From: Phycicoccus sonneratiae
GTDB taxonomy: Bacteria > Actinomycetota > Actinomycetes > Actinomycetales > Dermatophilaceae
DNA: 64,000 bases
Reading direction: 5' to 3'
Assembly: GCF_016887965.1 (NCBI RefSeq)
Contig: NZ_JAFDVD010000014.1
Coordinates: forward strand, 34,811-98,810
Below are positions 22,699 through 33,258 of this stretch, piece by piece. Position numbers and translations under genes: made by a program. Below the pieces are notes generated by a model that saw nothing but the letters and a program-made list of their open reading frames with translations, searched no databases and had not been told where the DNA came from. The stretch's first letter is position 1, and every line of letters starts with the position of its first letter.

Positions 22699-24756
22699 TC
22701 AGCCGCGCGGGCCGGCCAGCGCGGGCGCACCGGGCGCGCCCGGTGCGCCGGGACCGGCCGCCGTCTCGTCGTCGGGGTCGGCCACCGCGCCAGCGAACTG
22801 CGCGGCGTGCAGCCGCGCGAACGCTCCTCCGGCGGCGAGCAGCTCGGCGTGCGAGCCGCGCTCGACGATGCGCCCGTCCTCCATGACGAGGATGAGGTCG
22901 GCGTCGCGGATGGTCGAGAGCCGGTGCGCGATGACGAAGCTCGTGCGGTCGCTGCGCAGCGCGGCCATCGCGTGCTGGACGAGGAGCTCGGTGCGGGTGT
23001 CGACCGAGCTCGTCGCCTCGTCGAGGATGAGCAGCGAGGGGTCGGCGAGGAAGGCCCGCGCGATGGTGATGAGCTGGCGCTCGCCCGCGCTGATGTTGTC
23101 GGCCTCGGCGTTGAGCAGCGTGTCGTAGCCGTCGGGCAGCGAGTGCACGAACCGGTCGACGTAGGTGGCCCGGGCCGCCTCGAGGATCTCCTCCTCGGTC
23201 GCCCCCGGCCGGCCGTAGGCGATGTTGTCGTGGATCGTGCCGGCGAAGAGCCAGGTGTCCTGGAGCACCATGCCCGTGCGCGAGCGCAGGTCGTGGCGGG
23301 TCAGCTCGCGGATGTCCCTGCCGTCCAACGTGATCCGGCCGCCGTCGAGCTCGTAGAAGCGCATGACGAGGTTGACGAGCGTCGTCTTGCCGGCGCCGGT
23401 CGGGCCGACGATGGCGACGGTCTGGCCGGGCTCGACGACGAGGTCGAGGTGCTCGATGAGCGGCTTCTCGGGGGTGTAGGAGAACGAGACGTCCTCGAAG
23501 GCGACCCGCCCGCGGGGGTCGTCGATGCGGGCCGGTGTGCCGGAGTCGGGCTCCTGCTCGGGTGCGTCGAGGACCTCGAACACCCGCTCGGCGGAGGCGA
23601 CCCCGCTCTGCATGAGGTTGGCCATCGAGGCCACCTGGGTGAGCGGCTGGGTGAACTGGCGCGAGTACTGGATGAACGCCTGCACGTCACCGAGGCTCAT
23701 CGACCCGGACGCCACCCGCAGCCCGCCGACGACGGCGATGGCGACGTAGTTGAGGTTCCCGATGAACATCAGCGTCGGCATGATGACGCCGCTGATGAAC
23801 TGCGCCTTGAAGCTCGCGTCGTAGAGGGCGTCGTTGCGCTCGGCGAACTCGCGGTCGGCCTCGGCCCGGCGCCCGAAGACCTTGACGAGCTCGTGCCCGG
23901 TGAAGGTCTCCTCGACGACGGCGTTGACCTGGCCCGTGCTCTTCCACTGCTGGACGAAGTGGCCCTGCGAGCGCTTGCCGATGGCCGCCGTGACGACCAT
24001 CGTCACCGGGATCGTCACGAGGGCGATGACCGCGAGCAGCGGCGAGATGTAGAGCATCATCGCGATCATCGCGACGACCGTGAGCAGCGAGGTGACGAGC
24101 TGGCTCAGGGTCTGCTGGAGGCTCTGCGCGACGTTGTCGATGTCGTTGGTGACCCGGCTGAGCAGCTCGCCGCGCGGCTGGGCGTCGAAGTACGGGAGCG
24201 GCAGCCGGTTGAGCTTGTCCTCGACGTCGCGCCGCAGCCGGAAGACGGTGCGATTCACCGCGGTCGTCAGCAGCCGCCCCTGGACGAGCTGGAGCCCGGC
24301 GGCCACGACGTAGATCGCGAGCACGACGAGCAGCACGCGCCCGACGGCCCCGAAGTCGATGCCCTGCCCGGGCACGACGTGGTCCATCGCGGCGAGGACG
24401 TCGGCGACGGTGCCCCGCCCCTGGGCCCGCAGCCCCTCCACGGCCTGCTCCTGGGTGACGCCGGCCGGGATCTGTCGGCTGAAGACGCCGGCGAAGACGA
24501 GGTCGGTGGCGCGGCCGAGGATCTTCGGGCCGATCGCGTTGAGCACCACCGAGACGAGCGCGAGCACGAGCGAGCCCGCGACGACCGCGCGATCCGGGCG
24601 CAGCAGGCCGAGGACGCGCTTCGCGGACGGCACGAAGTCCTGGGACTTCTCGGTGGGCATGCCGAGCTGGGCGTGCGGCGGGCCGCCGCGGCGCGCACCG
24701 GCCGGTCCGCGCCGCTCCTCGGCGGCCTTCTCCTCGGCGGACTTCAGCTCGCTCAT
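22699..24756 (-). CDS. Heterodimeric ABC exporter subunit with catalytic NBD (type IV fold)
   Basis: A 685-residue exporter half: a 60-residue Ala/Arg/Gly-rich N-terminus, six membrane helices, then an ATPase domain. Walker A is GPTGAGKTT, Walker B ends in the catalytic Glu (LLILDEATSSVD), and the H-loop His is present in IAHRLST. The signature is the atypical SAGERQ. With the partner subunit it forms one functional and one degenerate ATP site, as in BmrCD or TM287/288. Such exporters remove lipophilic drugs. The C-terminal tail is Gly/Ala/Pro repeat-like. It is coupled to the partner by an ATGA overlap and repressed, presumably, by the TetR gene upstream. A 90-bp piece (22745-22834) recurs at the window end. 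Confidence 0.9.
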   Translation of the reverse strand: MSELKSAEEKAAEERRGPAGARRGGPPHAQLGMPTEKSQDFVPSAKRVLGLLRPDRAVVAGSLVLALVSVVLNAIGPKILGRATDLVFAGVFSRQIPAGVTQEQAVEGLRAQGRGTVADVLAAMDHVVPGQGIDFGAVGRVLLVVLAIYVVAAGLQLVQGRLLTTAVNRTVFRLRRDVEDKLNRLPLPYFDAQPRGELLSRVTNDIDNVAQSLQQTLSQLVTSLLTVVAMIAMMLYISPLLAVIALVTIPVTMVVTAAIGKRSQGHFVQQWKSTGQVNAVVEETFTGHELVKVFGRRAEADREFAERNDALYDASFKAQFISGVIMPTLMFIGNLNYVAIAVVGGLRVASGSMSLGDVQAFIQYSRQFTQPLTQVASMANLMQSGVASAERVFEVLDAPEQEPDSGTPARIDDPRGRVAFEDVSFSYTPEKPLIEHLDLVVEPGQTVAIVGPTGAGKTTLVNLVMRFYELDGGRITLDGRDIRELTRHDLRSRTGMVLQDTWLFAGTIHDNIAYGRPGATEEEILEAARATYVDRFVHSLPDGYDTLLNAEADNISAGERQLITIARAFLADPSLLILDEATSSVDTRTELLVQHAMAALRSDRTSFVIAHRLSTIRDADLILVMEDGRIVERGSHAELLAAGGAFARLHAAQFAGAVADPDDETAAGPGAPGAPGAPALAGPRG

Positions 24757-26486
24757 GCGACCTCCTCCATCGCCTGCTGGCTCTCGACGATCTCGACGTA
24801 CGTGGGGCAGGAGCCGAGCAGCTCCTCGTGGGTGCCGACGCCGACGACCGCGCCGTCCTCGAGGACGACGACCTGGTCGGCGTGGACGATGCTCGAGACG
24901 CGCTGGGCGACGACGACGACCGTGGCCTCCCGGGTGACCGGCCGCAGGGCGGCCCGCAGCCGGGCGTCGGTGGCGACGTCGAGCGCCGAGAAGGCGTCGT
25001 CGAAGAGGTAGACGGCCGGTCGCCGGACGAGGGCCCGGGCGATGGCCAGCCGCTGGCGCTGCCCGCCGCTGACGTTGGTGCCGCCCTGGGAGATCGGGGC
25101 GTCGAGGCCCCCGGGCATCTCGCGGACGAAGTCCTCGGCCTGGGCGATGCGCAGCGCCGCCCAGAGGTCGTCGTCGGTGGCGTCGGCGTCGCCGTGGCGC
25201 AGGTTGCTCGCGACCGTGCCGCTGAAGAGGTAGGGGCGCTGGGGCACGAGCCCGATGTGCCGCCAGAGGTCCTCGAGCTCGGCGTCCCGGACGTCGACGC
25301 CGCCGAGCAGCACGGCCCCGCCGGTGACGTCGTGCAGCCGGGGGACGAGGCCGACAAGGGTGGTCTTGCCGGCGCCGGTCGACCCGATGACGGCGGTCGT
25401 CGTGCCGGGCCGGGCGGTGAACGAGACCTCGCGGAGGACCGGCTCGTCGGCGCCGGGGTAGGCGAAGGTCGCGGCCCGCAGCTCGAGCTCGACCGGGCCG
25501 GCAGGGATCGCGACGGGGTCGGTGGCCGGCCGCACCGACGAGGAGGTGTCGAGCACCTCGACGATGCGCCCGGCCGAGACGGTGGCGCGCGGGATCATCA
25601 TCGACATGAAGGTCGCCATCATCACGGACATGAGGATCTGGATGAGGTAGGACATGAACGCCGTCAGCGCCCCGACCTGCATGGCGCCGGAGTCGACGCG
25701 GTGCGCACCGAACCAGATGACGGCGACGGTCGAGAGGTTGAAGACGACCATGACGATCGGGAAGGCGAGCGCCATGAGCCGGCCGACGGCCAGCGCGGTG
25801 CCGGTGTAGGTGCGGTTCGCCTCGCCGAAGCGCTCGCGCTCGACGTCCTCGCGGACGAAGGCCCGCACGACCCGGATGCCGGTGATCTGTTCGCGCAGGA
25901 TGCGGTTGACGGTGTCGACGGCCTTCTGCATCGCCCGGAAGTGCGGCACCATCCGGCTGATGACGAGGCCGACCGACAGGCCGAGCAGGGGCACGGCGAC
26001 CGCGACGAGCCACGAGAGGCCGATGTCCTCGCGCAGGGCCATGAAGACGCCGCCGACCATCATGATCGGCGCCGAGACCATGATCGCGAGCCCCATGTAA
26101 ACGACCTGCTGGACCTGGGTGACGTCGTTCGTCGAGCGGCTGATGAGCGTCGGGGCGCCGAACGAGGAGACCTCGCGGGCCGAGAACGAGCCGACCCGGG
26201 AGAAGACGGCCGCGCGCACGTCGCGCCCGAGGGAGGCCGAGGTGAGGGCGGCGATGCGCGTGGCGGCGATCGTCGCGACGACCTGGAGCAGCGAGACGCC
26301 GAGCATCCACGTCCCGGCGGTGACGATGAAGCCGGTGTCCCCGACCGCGACCCCCTCGTCGATGATCCGGCCGTTGAGGCTCGGCAGGTAGAGCGAGGCC
26401 AGGGTGCCGGCGAGCTGGAGGACGAGCAGCAGCGTCAGCGGGCCGGCGTAGGGCCGCAGGTGGGTGCGGACGAGGCGGAGCAGCAT
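24753..26486 (-). CDS. Heterodimeric ABC exporter subunit with degenerate NBD
   Basis: A 577-residue exporter half with six helices and an ATPase domain. Walker A (GSTGAGKTT) and signature (NVSGGQRQ) are normal, but Walker B reads LFDDAFSALD, with Asp replacing the catalytic Glu, and the H-loop reads VAQRVSS, with Gln replacing His. This is the hallmark of the non-catalytic half of heterodimeric drug exporters. Its canonical signature would complete the active site of the partner at 22699-24756. The ATG overlaps the TetR stop by one base and its stop overlaps the partner start, so all three are one operon. Confidence 0.9.
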   Translation of the reverse strand: MLLRLVRTHLRPYAGPLTLLLVLQLAGTLASLYLPSLNGRIIDEGVAVGDTGFIVTAGTWMLGVSLLQVVATIAATRIAALTSASLGRDVRAAVFSRVGSFSAREVSSFGAPTLISRSTNDVTQVQQVVYMGLAIMVSAPIMMVGGVFMALREDIGLSWLVAVAVPLLGLSVGLVISRMVPHFRAMQKAVDTVNRILREQITGIRVVRAFVREDVERERFGEANRTYTGTALAVGRLMALAFPIVMVVFNLSTVAVIWFGAHRVDSGAMQVGALTAFMSYLIQILMSVMMATFMSMMIPRATVSAGRIVEVLDTSSSVRPATDPVAIPAGPVELELRAATFAYPGADEPVLREVSFTARPGTTTAVIGSTGAGKTTLVGLVPRLHDVTGGAVLLGGVDVRDAELEDLWRHIGLVPQRPYLFSGTVASNLRHGDADATDDDLWAALRIAQAEDFVREMPGGLDAPISQGGTNVSGGQRQRLAIARALVRRPAVYLFDDAFSALDVATDARLRAALRPVTREATVVVVAQRVSSIVHADQVVVLEDGAVVGVGTHEELLGSCPTYVEIVESQQAMEEVA

Positions 26487-27079
26487 CAGGTGCCCTTCCG
26501 GTCGGTGTGGTGACGGGTGCCGTCGAGGACGACGGAGACGATCTCGGCGGCGTCGAGCCGGCCGGTGGACATCAGCGGGTGGACGCTCGAGAGGGTGAGC
26601 AGCTGGAGGAGGCTGACGACCTCGTCCACGGGGCGCCGCAGGGACGAGGCGTCGGACCCGACGAGGTCGGTGAAGGCGGAGTCGACGGCGGGGTCGGTGC
26701 GGCCGCGGCGGCGCTTGGCGTCGACCGGGGCCGGGGCGCCCGCGTGGTGGAGTACCGAGATGAGCCCGACGACGCGCTCGACGTGGCGCTGCATCACGGC
26801 CACGCCGGCGACGAGCCGCTCGTCGAGGCTGAGGGTGGTGTCGATGCCGCGCAGCTCGGCGACGGCGGGAGTGGAATCGAACACGGCTGCGACACAGGCC
26901 TGCACGAGCTCGTCCTTGGTGCCGAAGGCGCGGAACAGGGTGCCCTCCGCGATGCCGGCGGCCTCGGCGACCTGCTTGGTCGTCAGGGTCGTGCCGTGCT
27001 CGCGGAGGAGCGGGATGGCCACCTCGACGAGCGCCGTGCGGCGGTCCTCGGGGCTCATGGCGGGGGCTCGGGGGGTCAC
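26486..27079 (-). CDS. TetR-family repressor of the ABC exporter
   Basis: A 197-residue regulator. The N-terminal TetR helix-turn-helix is complete (TKQVAEAAGIAEGTLFRAFGTKDEL), and the C-terminal ligand domain is variable. Co-transcription with the exporter genes indicates that it senses an exporter substrate. GTG 27079 is favoured because a TATGAT -10 element stands 8 bases before it, giving a leaderless mRNA; ATG 27058 is the alternative and has no ribosome binding site. A perfect palindrome at 27096-27113 overlaps the promoter and is the likely operator, so the gene is probably autoregulated. Confidence 0.87.
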   Translation of the reverse strand: MTPRAPAMSPEDRRTALVEVAIPLLREHGTTLTTKQVAEAAGIAEGTLFRAFGTKDELVQACVAAVFDSTPAVAELRGIDTTLSLDERLVAGVAVMQRHVERVVGLISVLHHAGAPAPVDAKRRRGRTDPAVDSAFTDLVGSDASSLRRPVDEVVSLLQLLTLSSVHPLMSTGRLDAAEIVSVVLDGTRHHTDRKGT

Positions 27080-27329: not shown

Positions 27330-27347
27330 TCTCATCCCTGTCTCATC
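27330..27347 (+). promoter_or_regulatory. Direct repeat boxes for the OmpR-type regulator
   Basis: TCTCATCCCTGTCTCATC holds two identical 7-base boxes repeating every 11 bases, the geometry bound by PhoB/OmpR-family regulators. It stands 21 bases before the GTG of the first gene of the operon encoding such a regulator. The same boxes occur before the secreted protein at 31638. Confidence 0.6.
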
Positions 27348-27368
27348 ACCGGCTGGGAGGATGCACGG

Positions 27369-27803
27369 GTGTCCCGTCGAGCCCTCGCCGTCGCGCTGCT
27401 CGCGCTCGTCGCGGCGGTCACCCTCGGCGGTGTCGCCCTGGCCTCGACGCTGGCCCCACCGTCGGACGCCCCGCTCGGCGACCCGGTCCTCGTCGAGCCC
27501 ACCCCGGGCGGCAGCCCGGCCCCCACGACGCAGCCCACCGCGGGCTCCGGCGACACCCCGTCGCCGGGTCCGAGCCCCTCGGCCGGCGCGCCGACGGCCA
27601 CCCCTCGCCCGTCGGGCGAGGCCACCCGACCCGCCTCCCCCGTCCCCGTCGACCCTCCGCCGCCCCGCTCCAGCGACGACGACGACGACGACGGTGACGG
27701 TGACGACGACGGGGAGGAGCGCGACGACCGGGACGACCACGGCGACGAGGACGACGGCGACCACCGCGGTCCCGGCGGTGGGGACGACGATGACGACGAC
27801 TGA
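27369..27803 (+). CDS. Small secreted hydrophilic protein with acidic tail
   Basis: A 144-residue exported protein. Residues 1-27 are a signal sequence or single membrane anchor, residues 28-100 are rich in Pro, Thr, Ser and Gly, and residues 100-144 are almost all Asp, Glu, Gly and His. It has no known fold. Proteins like this precede OmpR-type two-component pairs in several actinobacteria, where the acidic tail may bind cations. The GTG start has GGGAGG 8 bases upstream. It overlaps the kinase start by 14 bases, so the three genes are one operon. A role as metal-binding accessory of the sensor is inference. Confidence 0.75.
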   Translation: MSRRALAVALLALVAAVTLGGVALASTLAPPSDAPLGDPVLVEPTPGGSPAPTTQPTAGSGDTPSPGPSPSAGAPTATPRPSGEATRPASPVPVDPPPPRSSDDDDDDGDGDDDGEERDDRDDHGDEDDGDHRGPGGGDDDDDD

Positions 27804-29253
27804 CCCGGCACCCCGGGTGCGGCGCACCCCGAGCGTGCGGACCAAGGTGGTCGCGACCGTCGTCGCGCTCGTGCTCCTGGCCCTGGCGGCCGGGGGCGTC
27901 GCGACCTGGGCCATCCAGCGCCGCCAGGCCGACGAGCGCATCGACCGCAACCTCACCCGCTCGGTCGCGCAGCTGCGCCAGACCGCCTCGAGCACCACCG
28001 AGGGAGGGGTGCCGGAGGCGCTGCGCCGGGCGCTCCAGCAGACGGTGCCGTTGCCGGCCGAGGGGATGATGGGCCTCGTCGACGGTCGCCCCACCTGGTA
28101 CGCCCCGCGAACCGTGCCGCTGCGGCTCGAGGACGACCCCCGGCTCGTCGCGGCCCTCGCCGGCGTGCCGACCGACCGGTCCCGCCTGACGACGGTCACG
28201 ACGAGCCGCACCACGTACCGGGTGGCGACCGTCCCGGTCCGGGTCGACGGTGACGCGCGCCTCGGCCTCTACGTCCTCGCCGCGGACCGCGACGCCGAGC
28301 TCGACGCCCTCGCGGCGACGTGGCGCACCTACGCCCTCGTCGCGCTCGGGGCCCTCGCGGTCGTGGCGGTCGCCGGCTCGATGGTGCTGCGGCGACTGCT
28401 GCGCCCCCTCGACGACCTGCGCGAAACGGCCCAGCGCATCACCGACACCGACCTCTCAGAGCGGATCCCGGTGCGCGGCACCGACGACGTCGCCGAGCTG
28501 ACCCGGACGGTCAACGCGATGCTCGACCGCCTCGAGACCTCCATCGACGGACAGCGCCGGCTCCTCGACGACGTCGGGCACGAGCTGCGCACCCCGCTGA
28601 CCGTCATCGGCGGGCACCTCGAGGTGATGGACCGCAGAGACCCCACGGACGTCGCCGCGACTCGCGAGCTGACCCTCGACGAGGTGCAGCGGATGCGGCT
28701 GCTCGTCGACGACCTGCTCGTGCTCGCCCGGACCGAGCGCCCCGACTTCGTCCGCCGCGCACCGACGCGCATCGGGGTGCTCACCGACGACGTCCTCGAC
28801 AAGGCCCGGATGCTGGGGCCGCGGGTGTGGGTCGTCGGCGAGCGCGTCGACGTCGAGTGCGACGTCGACCCGGTGCGCCTCACCCAGGCCTGGCTCCAGC
28901 TCGCCGAGAACGCCGTCAGCTACTCGGAGCCGGGGTCGCGGGTGACCATCGGTTCCTCCCTCGCGGGAAACCGGTTGCGGCTGAGGGTGACCGACGAGGG
29001 ACGCGGCATCGACCCGGAGGACGTCGACCGCGTCTTCGAACGCTTCGTGCGGGGCCGGAGCGTCGTGGACGCGGGCATCCCCGGGTCCGGGCTCGGGCTC
29101 GCGATCGTCGCCGCGATCGCCGCGGGGCACGGGGGCACCGTCGACCTGTCGTCGACGCCGGGCCGGGGCACGACGGTCGTCCTCGACCTGCCGGTGACCC
29201 CGGCGGCCGCGGCGACGCGCCCGCTCGAGCTGCACCCCGAGGAGGTCCCGTGA
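27790..29253 (+). CDS. HAMP-containing sensor histidine kinase
   Basis: A 487-residue membrane kinase. A helix near residues 17-38 and one near 178-200 flank an extracellular sensor domain of about 140 residues. A HAMP domain follows (RPLDDLRETAQRITDTDL), then HisKA with phospho-acceptor H264 in DDVGHELRTPLT and a HATPase_c domain with N, G1 (DEGRGID) and G2 (GSGLGLAIV) boxes. It would phosphorylate the regulator at 29250. The start is ATG inside the acidic-protein gene, preceded by GGTGGGG. The signal is unknown; the acidic neighbour hints at cation or envelope sensing. Confidence 0.9.
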   Translation: MTTTDPAPRVRRTPSVRTKVVATVVALVLLALAAGGVATWAIQRRQADERIDRNLTRSVAQLRQTASSTTEGGVPEALRRALQQTVPLPAEGMMGLVDGRPTWYAPRTVPLRLEDDPRLVAALAGVPTDRSRLTTVTTSRTTYRVATVPVRVDGDARLGLYVLAADRDAELDALAATWRTYALVALGALAVVAVAGSMVLRRLLRPLDDLRETAQRITDTDLSERIPVRGTDDVAELTRTVNAMLDRLETSIDGQRRLLDDVGHELRTPLTVIGGHLEVMDRRDPTDVAATRELTLDEVQRMRLLVDDLLVLARTERPDFVRRAPTRIGVLTDDVLDKARMLGPRVWVVGERVDVECDVDPVRLTQAWLQLAENAVSYSEPGSRVTIGSSLAGNRLRLRVTDEGRGIDPEDVDRVFERFVRGRSVVDAGIPGSGLGLAIVAAIAAGHGGTVDLSSTPGRGTTVVLDLPVTPAAAATRPLELHPEEVP

Positions 29254-29912
29254 GCCGCATCCTCGTCGTCGAGGACGAGGAGCGGATCGCCGCCTTCGTC
29301 GCCAAGGGACTGCGCGCCGCCGGCATGCAGCCCACCACCGTGCGCACCGGCCGGGACGCGCTCGCGCACGTGGCCGCCGGCGAGGTCGACCTCGTCGTCC
29401 TCGACCTCGGGCTGCCCGACCAGGACGGCTTCAGCGTGCTGCAGCGGCTGCGCGAGACCGGGTCGAGCATCCCCGTCATCATCCTCACGGCGCGGACCTC
29501 GGTGGCGGACACCGTCGCCGGGCTCGAGGGCGGCGCGGACGACTACATGCCGAAGCCGTTCCGGTTCGAGGAGCTGCTCGCCCGCATCCGCCGTCGGCTC
29601 AGCGGGCCGGCCGGCGCGGGAGGCGCGACGACCCTCACCCACGGGTCGGTCTCGCTCGACCTGCGCACCCGCCGCGCGAGCGTGGGCTCGACGGAGGTCG
29701 AGCTGTCGGCACGCGAGTTCGCCCTCGCCGAGGCGTTCCTGCGCAGCCCCGGGCAGGTGCTTTCGCGCGAACAGCTGCTGTCGCGGGTCTGGGGCTACGA
29801 CTTCGACCCGGGCTCCAACGTCGTCGACGTCTACGTGAGGTACCTGCGCAACAAGCTCGGGCCCCAGGTCGTGGCCACCGTGCGCGGGATGGGCTACCGG
29901 CTCGACGGCTGA
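29250..29912 (+). CDS. OmpR-family response regulator
   Basis: A 220-residue regulator with receiver domain (D52 in VVLDLGLPD; switch Lys in MPKPF) and a C-terminal winged helix (LSAREFALAEAFLRSPGQVLS, then VVDVYVRYLRNKLG). The GTG start overlaps the kinase stop and GGAGG precedes it. Probable binding sites are the 11-bp-phased TCTCATC boxes before this operon (27330-27347) and before the secreted-protein gene (31701-31729). Its last codons overlap the convergent kinase-fold gene by 19 bp. Confidence 0.9.
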   Translation: MSRILVVEDEERIAAFVAKGLRAAGMQPTTVRTGRDALAHVAAGEVDLVVLDLGLPDQDGFSVLQRLRETGSSIPVIILTARTSVADTVAGLEGGADDYMPKPFRFEELLARIRRRLSGPAGAGGATTLTHGSVSLDLRTRRASVGSTEVELSAREFALAEAFLRSPGQVLSREQLLSRVWGYDFDPGSNVVDVYVRYLRNKLGPQVVATVRGMGYRLDG

Positions 29913-31165
29913 GCGACCGCCCCGGCGAGCGCGGCCTCGGCGAGGTCGAGCAGCCCGGCGGCGTCGACCGTCTGCGGGGCACCCACCCGGGCGCGGTCGT
30001 GGGCTCCGACCGCGAGCGAGAGGAGGACGCCGGCGGTGCGCACGTCGAGCGCCTCGGCGCCGACGAGCGTGCCGGCCCGGGTGCGCCAGCGGTCGGCCAC
30101 CGCGGACCCGGCCGGGCCCAGGGCCAGGGCGTGGGCCACGAGGCAGGCGAGGTCGTCGACGCGGTGCCCCGGTCCGACGGTGTCGACGTCGAGCAGGCCG
30201 CGCAGCCGCCACCGGTGCCCGGGGCGGTCACCCTCCCGGTCCGCGGTCAGCTGGCCCTCGTGGAGGTCGCCGTGGGCGGGGACGACGGGCCCGAGGTCGA
30301 CCTCCGTGGAGCGGCGCCGGACGGCCTCGGCGACCTCGTGGGCCCGCTCGCCGCAGGACGTGCCGGCGAGCGACGCGGCGTACTGCCGGGCCCGGTCCGA
30401 CCACGCGGGGCGCGCCGGCAGGTCGCGGACCCCGGGGGGCAGGGCCTCGAGGAGGGCGACGAGGTCGTCCACCTCGACCCCGTGCGCGTCGTCGGCGACG
30501 ACGGCGTCGAGGAGCGGGATCCCGGGCAGCGGGTCGAGGACGAGCACGCCGAGCGCCTCGTGCTCGGCGGCGACGGCCGGCACCGGGACGCCGGCATCGG
30601 CGAGCAGGTGCAGCCGGCGGCGGACGTCGGACCATCCCCCGCGGGCGCCGGGAGCGGTGCGCAGGACCTTGGCCCACGACGTCGAGCCCTCGTGGTCGAT
30701 CCGGACGACCGCCCGCCGCAGGGGCCGGTAGCCGACGAGCGCCACCCCGACAGGGGCGACCCCGGCGGGTGCGGGCCCGCCGGGGTCGGCCCCCGCGAGC
30801 GGTCCGCGCGGCAGCAGGGTCGCCGCGCGGACCGGGTCGCAGGCCGGCGCGAGCCCGGGCAGGGCCGGGTCGTCCGGGAACCGCCAGGCGAGCACGCGCC
30901 CGGTCGCCGACCCGAGGGTGACCAGTCCGGGAGCGGACGGGTCGACACCCGCGGCCGAGGACGTCGTGAGGACGACGTACTCCTCGGCGCTCGAGCCGTC
31001 GGGGCGCTGCACCCTGACGCGGTGCCCCGCCGTGACGCCGTCACCGGGCCGGACGTCGACGGCGTGCAGGGCGTGGTCGAGCACGCGGGCACCGGTCGTC
31101 GACACCGCGAGGGCGAGAAGCTCGCCCGCCCCCGCGCCGAGGACGTCCGGGCCCGGGTGCCCCAC
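29894..31165 (-). CDS. Aminoglycoside-phosphotransferase/choline-kinase fold protein
   Basis: A 423-residue protein. The C-terminal 270 residues have the APH fold: an ATP lobe (WAKVLRT near 170) and the catalytic loop PAHGDLHEGQL near 318, then the metal site LLDVDTVGPGHRVDDLA. The catalytic-loop Asn common to the family is Gln here. The first 150 residues carry a kinase-lobe-like region with GSATGRVLAWRF. It may phosphorylate a small alcohol, amino sugar or cell-envelope intermediate; the substrate is unknown. GTG 31165 begins 2 bases behind the secreted-protein stop, so the two form one operon. Confidence 0.72.
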   Translation of the reverse strand: MGHPGPDVLGAGAGELLALAVSTTGARVLDHALHAVDVRPGDGVTAGHRVRVQRPDGSSAEEYVVLTTSSAAGVDPSAPGLVTLGSATGRVLAWRFPDDPALPGLAPACDPVRAATLLPRGPLAGADPGGPAPAGVAPVGVALVGYRPLRRAVVRIDHEGSTSWAKVLRTAPGARGGWSDVRRRLHLLADAGVPVPAVAAEHEALGVLVLDPLPGIPLLDAVVADDAHGVEVDDLVALLEALPPGVRDLPARPAWSDRARQYAASLAGTSCGERAHEVAEAVRRRSTEVDLGPVVPAHGDLHEGQLTADREGDRPGHRWRLRGLLDVDTVGPGHRVDDLACLVAHALALGPAGSAVADRWRTRAGTLVGAEALDVRTAGVLLSLAVGAHDRARVGAPQTVDAAGLLDLAEAALAGAVAQPSSR

Positions 31166-31167
31166 CG

Positions 31168-31638
31168 TCAGTCCGCGCTGGGGGCCGTGGCGGGGGTGGC
31201 CGGCGTCGCGGGGCTCTCGGCCGTGGGCGCCGTGGCCGGGCTGTCCGGGGTCGGCGGCGTCTGGGTCGAGGCCGGCGTCGCCGGGCTGTCCGGGGTGGGA
31301 GGGGTCTGGGCCGTCGGGGCCGAGACCGGCGAGGCCGGCGTCACGGGCGTGGCCGCCGACGCCGGGGTCACGGGCGTCACGGCCGAGGCCGGGGTGGCCG
31401 GGGTCGCCGCGGTCTCCGAGGCCTCGGGCGCGGGCACGGTCGGCACGTCGGTGGGGCTCGGCTCGGCCGTCGGGGTCGCGTCGTCGGACGCGGTCGGCGC
31501 GGCCGAGGAGCTGCTGCTCGCGGGCCGGGCCGTCGAGGCGTCGTCGGCGCTCGCGCCGGCGGCCACCGTCGTGCCGACGATCGCCGCGGCGCCGAGGGCG
31601 CCGCTCACGACCCAGGCGGTGCGGGGGATGGTGCGCAT
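31168..31638 (-). CDS. Secreted Thr/Pro/Ala/Ser-rich protein with imperfect repeats
   Basis: A 156-residue exported protein. Residues 1-32 are a signal sequence or anchor, and the rest is low-complexity Thr-Pro-Ala-Ser-Val. Two copies of QTPPTPDSPAT and several VTPVTPASAA-like units are visible, so it is probably extended and may be mannosylated or wall-associated. No catalytic domain is present. AGGAGG stands 6 bases before the ATG. Upstream are three boxes of the neighbouring OmpR-type regulator. It is co-transcribed with the APH-fold gene. Confidence 0.78.
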   Translation of the reverse strand: MRTIPRTAWVVSGALGAAAIVGTTVAAGASADDASTARPASSSSSAAPTASDDATPTAEPSPTDVPTVPAPEASETAATPATPASAVTPVTPASAATPVTPASPVSAPTAQTPPTPDSPATPASTQTPPTPDSPATAPTAESPATPATPATAPSAD

Positions 31639-31700
31639 GAGGGACCTCCTGGTACGGGGACGGCCGGTGCCGCCCCGGGGGAGCCAGCCTCACGGCCCCG

Positions 31701-31740
31701 GATGAGACCCGGGGGAGACGGGGATGAGAGGCCTCTCATC
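31701..31740 (-). promoter_or_regulatory. Three phased boxes and an 18-bp palindrome before the secreted-protein gene
   Basis: Read on the minus strand, TCTCATC (31729-31723), TCTCCCC (31718-31712) and TCTCATC (31707-31701) repeat every 11 bases. GATGAGAGGCCTCTCATC (31723-31740) is also a perfect palindrome because a fourth, inverted box joins the array. The array lies 63 bases before the ATG at 31638. It matches the pair at 27330-27347 in sequence, spacing and orientation. Confidence 0.65.
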
Positions 31741-31755
31741 CGGACACGGCCGACG

Positions 31756-33258
31756 TCAGCGCACGATCAGGCCGTCGCGCGCGGCGTCGCGCAGGAAGGC
31801 CGTGGCCTCGGTGCGCACCGCCTCGTCGTCGAGGTCGAGCAGGCCGGCGATGGCCGCCGTGGCGGCGCGCGCCGTGAGCTCGCCGTCGCACACCGAGACG
31901 AGCGCCGCCGTCAGCGTGGTGAGCGGCAGGTGGCGACGCAGGCCGCCGCCCTGACGGAGCAGGATGACGCGCGGGTCGGCCTCTCCCGGAACGGAGTGCC
32001 GCTCCTCGGTGACGTCGTCGGCCACGCGCCAGGCGGTGTCGAGGACGGCGTCGTCGTCGTGCTCGGCCAGCCAGGTCCGGGCGCGCAGACCGGCGAGGAC
32101 GGAGGGTCCCATCGGCTGCTCGACGGGGCCGGGGACGTCGACGAGGTCGCGGAACGGCTCGCGGCCGGTGGTCGGCCGCTGGAGGGTGACGACCCCGAAG
32201 CCGATGGCCTCGACGTCGCGTGCCGCGAAGTCGTCGAGCCACGCGGTGTACATCGCGTTGAAGTCGGCGGTGCCGGGGTGGTGCCCGCCGTCGCGGGCCC
32301 AGGTCTCGGCGTACTCGGCGGGGTCCTGCACCTCGCGCTGGACGACCCACGCGTCGAGGCCGGTGCCGTCGAGCCACTCCCCCACCCGCTCGGTCCACGT
32401 CGTGCCCCGCGGCACCTCCCAGTTGCCGAGCAGCTGGGCGACCCCGCCCGGCTCGAGGTGGGAGCCGACGGTGCGGACGAGGTCGCGCACGACGGCGTCG
32501 CCGGCGGCCCCGCCGTCGCGGTACTCGAAGAGCGGCACCGCGCCCGAGCGCGGCGTGATGACGAACGGCGGGTTGGAGACGACGAGGTCGAAGCGCTCGC
32601 CGGCGACCGGGTCGAGCATCGAGCCGGAACGCACCTCCCAGCTCAGGCCGTTCAGCGCGGCGTTGAAGCGGGCGTACGCGAGGGCACGCTCGGAGAGGTC
32701 GGTGACGGTGACCCGCTCGGCGTGCGCCCCGAGGTGCAGGGCCTGGACGCCGCACCCGGTGCCGAGGTCGAGGGCGCGGGTGGCCGGGAGGCGCGGCGTC
32801 CACGACGCGAGCGTCGCCGAGGCGCCGCCGACCCCGAGCACGTGGTCGGGCGTCAGCGGGCGGCCGGTGGCCAGCTCGCCGAGGTCGGAGGCGACCCACC
32901 AGTCCGCGCCGTCGGCGGCGTAGGGCCGCAGGTCGCAGAGCGCGACGACCGCGTCGCCCTCGGGGGCGAGCAGGCCGAGCTCGACGCCGCCGGACACCCC
33001 GAGGCCCGGCAGCGCGGCGGCCACCTCGGGCGCGTCGACCGGGTCGCCGAGGGTGAAGAGGCGCACGAGGGCCGCGCGCGGGTCGTCGGAGGCGTCGGTG
33101 GCGCGCTGCGCCGGCAGGGCCTGGTCACGGTCCAGGGCGGCGGCGGCCATCGGGCCGAGCAGGTCGGTGACCCCGGCGACGGTGAAGCCGGAGGCGGTGA
33201 GGTCGGCGCGCAGGCGGGCGACGAGGGCGGCGTCGGCACGGGGCGGGTTGGCGGTCAT
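31756..33258 (-). CDS. SAM-dependent methyltransferase with N-terminal accessory domain
   Basis: A 500-residue protein. Residues 150-290 form a small-methyltransferase (MTS) domain with motif I LDLGTGCGVQAL and the substrate motif VSNPPFV found in N5-glutamine and N6-adenine methyltransferases. About 110 residues precede it and the C-terminal 200 residues are a separate domain with winged-helix-like regions. The target may be a protein, nucleic acid or rRNA. A TAGGCT -10 lies 8 bases before ATG 33258, so the mRNA is probably leaderless. Confidence 0.83.
   Translation of the reverse strand: MTANPPRADAALVARLRADLTASGFTVAGVTDLLGPMAAAALDRDQALPAQRATDASDDPRAALVRLFTLGDPVDAPEVAAALPGLGVSGGVELGLLAPEGDAVVALCDLRPYAADGADWWVASDLGELATGRPLTPDHVLGVGGASATLASWTPRLPATRALDLGTGCGVQALHLGAHAERVTVTDLSERALAYARFNAALNGLSWEVRSGSMLDPVAGERFDLVVSNPPFVITPRSGAVPLFEYRDGGAAGDAVVRDLVRTVGSHLEPGGVAQLLGNWEVPRGTTWTERVGEWLDGTGLDAWVVQREVQDPAEYAETWARDGGHHPGTADFNAMYTAWLDDFAARDVEAIGFGVVTLQRPTTGREPFRDLVDVPGPVEQPMGPSVLAGLRARTWLAEHDDDAVLDTAWRVADDVTEERHSVPGEADPRVILLRQGGGLRRHLPLTTLTAALVSVCDGELTARAATAAIAGLLDLDDEAVRTEATAFLRDAARDGLIVR

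Follow-up and report, generated by a model that had tools for sequence, protein, structure and literature searches.

The 64,000-nt window analysed here, from Phycicoccus sonneratiae (NCBI assembly GCF_016887965.1, contig NZ_JAFDVD010000014.1, positions 34,811–98,810, forward strand), encodes a two-component system, consisting of a sensor histidine kinase and an OmpR/PhoB-type response regulator, in an operon with an acidic protein; a second, convergent operon encodes a Thr/Pro/Ala-rich protein and an APH-like protein. Both operons are preceded by copies of a 7-bp box, TCTCATC, repeated at a pitch of 11 bp (sites 1 and 2), which are probably binding sites of the neighbouring regulator, arranged as a PhoB/PhoP-type tandem array through which both operons would be switched on. 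The features of the locus are as follows:

27330–27336, + strand: site 1, direct box 1, TCTCATC (from the sequence and from window and genome scans)
27341–27347, + strand: site 1, direct box 2, TCTCATC; 11-bp pitch from box 1, spacer CCTG
27357–27362, + strand: predicted −10 hexamer GAGGAT, 9 nt past the last box of site 1
27369–27803, + strand: acidic protein, 144 aa, GTG start; hydrophobic N-terminus, Pro/Thr linker, poly-Asp tail
27790–29253, + strand: sensor histidine kinase (HAMP, HisKA, HATPase_c); its start overlaps the end of the acidic gene
29250–29912, + strand: OmpR/PhoB-type response regulator, predicted box binder, Tyr198; its start is overlapped by the end of the kinase gene
31740–31734, − strand: site 2, inverted box GATGAGA; spacer GGCC to direct box 1
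31729–31723, − strand: site 2, direct box 1, TCTCATC; followed by spacer CCCG
31718–31712, − strand: site 2, direct box 2, degenerate, TCTCCCC (2 mismatches); followed by spacer CGGG
31707–31701, − strand: site 2, direct box 3, TCTCATC, exact
31691–31686, − strand: predicted −10 hexamer GAGGCT, 9 nt past the last box of site 2 (read from the sequence)
31638–31168, − strand: Thr/Pro/Ala-rich protein, 156 aa; hydrophobic N-terminus
31165–29894, − strand: APH-like protein, 423 aa, GTG start, 2 nt past the stop of the Thr/Pro gene

The two box arrays and the genes behind them

An earlier, sequence-only reading of this stretch had reported a TCTCATC pair 11 bases apart at 27330–27347, and the sequence, the scans and the shuffles all bear this out. 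Allowing up to 2 mismatches, TCTCATC-N4-TCTCATC has 3 matches in the window against 0.23 expected, a number reached in 0 of 100 shuffles. The genome-wide scan which that reading had proposed recovers a single exact copy in 4,111,833 bases, located at site 1, and none of the reversed control; at ≤2 mismatches there are 6 matches, 3 of them inside the 4.4-kb locus, and the near-matches elsewhere in the genome are candidates for further regulon members. Site 1 consists of direct boxes only. Site 2, read on the minus strand from 31740 to 31701, is GATGAGA GGCC TCTCATC CCCG TCTCCCC CGGG TCTCATC. It had been described as three same-phase boxes (31729–31701), and the 11-bp phase indeed holds throughout the three direct boxes, but the middle one carries 2 mismatches whereas the other two are exact, and the inverted box at 31740–31734, which belongs to the array, had been overlooked. 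Together with direct box 1, the inverted box forms the 18-bp palindrome GATGAGAGGCCTCTCATC; the exact palindrome GATGAGAN4TCTCATC occurs once in the genome, at site 2.

The gene descriptions given earlier (acidic protein, histidine kinase, OmpR/PhoB-type regulator, Thr/Pro-rich protein, APH-like protein) all held up. The regulator matches PF00072 (receiver) and PF00486 (winged-helix Trans_reg_C), and D9, D52, T80 and K102, which we take to be the conserved phosphorylation-site residues, are invariant in 9 aligned relatives; the genome encodes one regulator of this kind at E ≤ 1e-55. The acidic protein has no Pfam match, and hence no PepSY domain was found in it, and the search for homologues of the Thr/Pro protein yielded none at E 0.001 among 7989 candidates scored. 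The APH-like protein of the window likewise has no Pfam match, PF01636 being matched by four of six relatives tested; K166, presumably the catalytic lysine, and H298-G299-D300, D326 and D328, presumably the HGD and DxD residues of the APH fold, are invariant in 22 aligned rows. Because just 2 nt separate the GTG of the APH-like gene from the preceding Thr/Pro stop codon, co-transcription of the two genes is likely.

Conservation of the boxes and promoter anatomy

Conservation was assessed at 80 named loci, the best 80 of the regulator relatives among the matches listed (named genomes), within −3000 to +4000 of the regulator and at ≤2 mismatches. A direct pair is present at 48 of these loci, an inverted pair at 61 and either at 68, compared to 1 for an outward-facing pair and 0/80 for the reversed-box control. 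Both kinds of pair peak solely at 11 bp (48 and 61 loci), with no more than 6 at any other spacing from 8 to 18. In 130 far-flank pieces of 3.5 kb there are 1 direct and 1 inverted match, and at 15 paralogous regulator loci 0 direct and 1 inverted, whereas extension of the search to whole loci of up to 20 kb raises the direct pair to 52/80, with 1 for the control. Permuted boxes (120 of 139 tried) match on average 1.9 loci; the top permutation, with 45, is the same array one base off. When the box is not assumed, TCTCAT emerges as the 6-mer most repeated at 11 bp (21/80 loci; best unrelated word, 10), although codon-periodic words reach higher scores (up to 45) at spacings of 9 and 12, which is what coding DNA would lead one to expect.

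Within the genus, the regulator is encoded in 3 of 12 genomes (G000, G001 and G008); exact direct repeats are found in G000 and G001 and exact palindromes in G000 and G008, whereas the nine genomes without the regulator contain neither. The comparison of both promoters in related genomes, also proposed earlier, places arrays at both equivalent positions in G001 and G008, with 2 and 3 mismatches in the latter. Across 186 genomes of the family, the exact palindrome is found in 26 and the reversed pattern in none, and the regulator (E ≤ 1e-55) in 66. Palindrome-bearing genomes encode the regulator in 24 of 26 cases, compared to 42/160 of the rest (Fisher p 1e-10, uncorrected for kinship), and for 24 of the 31 palindromes the regulator gene is no more than 10 kb away. 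The exact direct repeat is found in 16/186 genomes (17 sites; control, 1 site), and several of these sites fall in open frames or ahead of unrelated-looking genes. At L042 and L043 (G133 and G134), direct boxes precede Asp-rich lipoprotein-like open reading frames (ORFs), and no regulator or kinase homologue was found in these 18-kb stretches. Thus, the conservation in related genomes on which the sequence-only reading had staked its proposal was found at 68/80 loci, in the genus and in the link with the regulator across the family.

The 80 loci include 54 operon promoters, 37 with an inverted box and 17 direct-only. A separate filter for direct-only arrays retained 23 promoters, from 19 named loci plus the window, G001, G008 and G043; two of the named loci, L104 and L114, have inverted-type arrays that passed this filter in a shifted register. 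In 21 of these 23 promoters, the window included, a NANNNT hexamer starts exactly 9 nt past the last box, and ATG or GTG stands at +21 in 18 and at +22 in 2. This fixed spacing to a −10-like hexamer suggests that the boxes occupy the −35 position, and the boxes of PhoB also take the place of the −35 element. In the window, the GTG of the acidic gene (27369) stands 6 nt past the hexamer GAGGAT, so that the mRNA of the first operon is likely to be leaderless.

The candidate reader of the boxes and its targets

In a quick tree of 111 regulators, in which long branches were flagged, the 15 paralogues fall on one side of a branch with SH-aLRT 76, and the presence of boxes requires 11 changes, compared to 29.6 in shuffles. 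Inverted-direct-direct arrays could be read from their TCAT/ATGA cores alone in 36 of 96 rows. Residue 198, in the recognition helix of the regulator, is Tyr in all 28 rows in which the inverted half-site reads ATGAG (C at box base 2), whereas the 8 rows reading ATGAA (T at base 2) all have Ala, Ser or Thr; the first direct box carries C at base 2 in 28/28 Tyr rows. According to PMC4832192, Tyr220 in the PhoP-DNA structure forms a hydrogen bond with the C at position 2 of the 7-bp motif, and PhoP residues N212, V213, Y217, Y220 and R222 described there correspond, at a constant offset of 22, to N190, V191, Y195, Y198 and R200 here. Promoter geometry together with the pairing of residue 198 and base 2 point to the neighbouring regulator as the predicted reader of the boxes. 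An acidic patch through which PhoB activates, and PmrA is thought to (as presented in PMC3973317), also appears to be retained: PmrA E172, D182 and E184 from that source correspond, by an inferred offset of 2, to E174, D184 and D186, positions that carry an acidic residue in 73, 72 and 74, respectively, of the 74 rows with boxes.

With ORF classes assigned by heuristic filters, boxes precede acidic-tail ORFs at 44/80 loci, W..G Ser/Thr/Pro-repeat ORFs, which resemble the Thr/Pro-rich protein of the window, at 17/80 and either at 59/80. APH-like homologues are found at 36/96 loci, in several cases with a box of their own (for instance, L074, L076 and G043). In further genomes of the family, the palindrome also stands ahead of DUF4956-VTC pairs (L188-L192 and L059), often divergent from the acidic operon, and ahead of, next to or near operons that combine glycosyltransferases with an ABC exporter and an APH protein (L193, L194 and L199; variants at L154 and L155); Pfam was run on L190, L193 and L199, one example per domain, and the other members were assigned by eye. 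The proposed small regulon of one two-component system is supported, except that in relatives the arrays also precede DUF4956-VTC and glycosyltransferase operons. The recurring targets suggest that the system controls polymers of the cell surface, of which many are anionic.

Several further observations come from the related loci. In some of the glycosyltransferase/ABC/APH operons (L193, L194, L199, L154 and L155), the last gene encodes a further protein whose tail is acidic and W/D-rich. Eight loci (L110, L115, L120, L129, L133, L138, L150 and L152) have a Ser/Thr protein kinase-like gene close to the regulator, with PF00069 confirmed on L115 only. At L055 (G043), one array, at +2729/+2734 from the regulator, is common to two divergent genes, one of them APH-like and the other encoding a lipoprotein that by eye resembles an L,D-transpeptidase with a peptidoglycan-binding domain. 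At L061 (G056), a PepSY-like protein (by eye), at −2260 to −1691 from the regulator, replaces the acidic protein.

In the window, the regulator and APH-like genes overlap by 19 bp at their 3′ ends, on opposite strands (29894–29912). Divergent upstream of the acidic operon lie a TetR-type gene (PF00440; 26486–27079) and an ABC-exporter-like gene (by eye), together spanning 24753–27079, and G001 has genes of equal sizes at this position. Directly upstream of site 2, on its same strand, a methyltransferase with DUF7059 and DUF7782 is encoded (31756–33258).

Interpretation and comparison with known systems

The same spaced boxes at both gene groups and their recurrence beside related sensor-regulator genes in many actinobacteria lead us to predict that one sensor-regulator pair switches both groups on. 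To judge from sequence comparison, the system is best read as a two-component system of PhoB/PhoP-like type that regulates its own operon and includes an acidic-tail protein. The phosphorylated regulator would stand in for the −35 element, with protomers bound head-to-tail on the direct boxes and the acidic patch (E174, D184 and D186) touching sigma region 4; at site 2, the inverted box may hold an oppositely oriented protomer. Activation of the first operon would constitute positive feedback on the acidic-protein, kinase and regulator genes, and the Thr/Pro-protein/APH-kinase operon would be switched on by the same regulator. The acidic and Thr/Pro-rich proteins are predicted to reside at the cell surface. 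Least certain among these steps, the acidic protein might be membrane-anchored with its poly-Asp tail outside, where it could bind cations or cationic compounds and feed back on the kinase.

A number of results weigh against this assignment. In the range searched, sites with ≤2 mismatches are missing from 12 of the 80 loci. Among these, three Streptomyces and one Longimycelium carry a variant box of the GATGAA...TTCAT type, the array of L079 lies out of range, at −4670, and L136 has a weaker palindrome (by eye); no box was seen in this range at L112 and L132, nor at L088, L107, L119 and L125 (Cellulomonas), which keep Tyr198, the sequence of L088 ending 1.5 kb upstream of the regulator. One of the paralogous loci has an inverted pair. 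In the family, no regulator gene is found within 10 kb of 7 of the 31 palindromes, 42 of the 66 regulator-bearing genomes have no exact palindrome and two of the 186 genomes scanned, G121 and G150, have the palindrome and no regulator. As for residue 198, base 2 of the first direct box is T in only 5 of the 8 non-Tyr rows; the comparison excluded the 60 of 96 rows without a readable array, of which 58 have Tyr, one Gln and one His; and the eight non-Tyr rows form two clades, and therefore the pairing amounts to two changes on the tree, for which the pair test has no power.

Chance resemblance in GC-rich DNA is hardly credible as the origin of the repeats: although short single words are common and direct box 2 of site 2 is degenerate, shuffled sequences and reversed and permuted boxes all argue against it, and conservation at 68/80 loci refutes this explanation. 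It also appears very improbable that another regulator reads the boxes, such as a paralogous OmpR-type protein or the divergent TetR-type repressor (26486–27079). Paralogous regulators do exist in the genome, and G121 and G150 carry the exact palindrome without the regulator; however, the boxes track this regulator family at the 80 loci and in the 186 family genomes, are nearly absent from the 15 paralogue loci (0 direct, 1 inverted) and covary at base 2 with residue 198, and the box-bearing arrangement recurs where the listed neighbours show no such TetR gene, an untallied observation.

A different sign of regulation, whereby the same regulator would cover the −35 region and in this way repress either promoter or both, is unlikely: a repressor could use boxes in this position too, but the fixed 9-nt spacing of the hexamer in 21/23 promoters and the retained acidic residues E174, D184 and D186 are better suited to activation of the PhoB/PmrA type, as outlined in PMC3973317. 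A broader reading, tentative and less likely than not, is one in which the system would be an actinobacteria-wide envelope system, with the mixed inverted-plus-direct array read by a regulator that controls extracellular polyanions. The tethered poly-Asp protein would then buffer cations and report to the kinase. Ser/Thr/Pro-repeat proteins, together with a kinase-like partner, would be under the same control, joined in relatives by glycosyltransferase clusters and by genes with a VTC domain (polyphosphate-polymerase-like).

If the boxes are indeed sites of the neighbouring regulator, a hitherto anonymous two-component system gains a predicted operator, regulon and recognition residue, which are testable in many culturable actinobacteria. 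Acidic-tail and Ser/Thr/Pro-repeat proteins, with no Pfam match here, become tied by the box to one regulator family, and the recurring targets suggest that this family manages surface polymers.

No description of the TCTCATC box was recognised in open-access literature (titles, abstracts and passages). A sigma-factor element was rejected by reasoning only, given that it does not fit an inverted-plus-direct 11-bp array. MprA is a further candidate, neither confirmed nor excluded by the literature. CusR/HprR may also read palindromic boxes; no description of such boxes was found in the passages searched. CutR-type sites were rejected, their consensus TAWATAAA being unlike TCTCATC (PMC12802291), as were Pho-type boxes, namely, CTGTCAT (PhoB) and GTTCACC (S. 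coelicolor PhoP), as quoted in PMC4832192.

Among systems of similar gene content, DbfQRS of Vibrio cholerae also has a small secreted protein encoded beside a two-component system, and DbfQ is described as binding the sensor domain of the kinase; however, it is a PepSY-domain protein (PMC12714742), whereas the acidic protein has no Pfam domain. In UipRS-UipA of Microbacterium, the two-component system likewise adjoins a single-pass membrane protein, UipA, whose negatively charged face binds metal, but which contains tandem PepSY domains, as summarized in a review (PMC8963506), again in contrast to the acidic protein, which matches no Pfam family; by eye, no UipA-like gene was apparent among the genes listed for four Microbacterium loci. 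CutRS of Streptomyces is, similarly, a two-component system of the actinobacterial envelope for which DNA targets are defined, although, according to the account in PMC12802291, no CutR site was found at its own operon, unlike here.

The closest parallels are found in operator architecture. OmpR/PhoB-type operators are described as 7-bp direct repeats with a 4-bp spacer and an 11-bp pitch, bound by cooperative tandem dimers extendable to trimers and tetramers (PMC4832192). M. tuberculosis PhoP, the E. coli PhoB pho box and S. coelicolor PhoP share with the present arrays the 7-bp direct repeats and 4-bp spacer, and the N, V, Y, Y and R of the PhoP recognition helix are equally spaced here, whereas the M. 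tuberculosis PhoP motif given in that source is TCACAGC rather than TCTCATC and the target genes differ. The same source states that all known sites of the OmpR/PhoB family are direct repeats; in contrast to such direct-only operators, most arrays described here are led by an inverted half-site, and its conservation is unusual in a regulator family described as direct-repeat binders.

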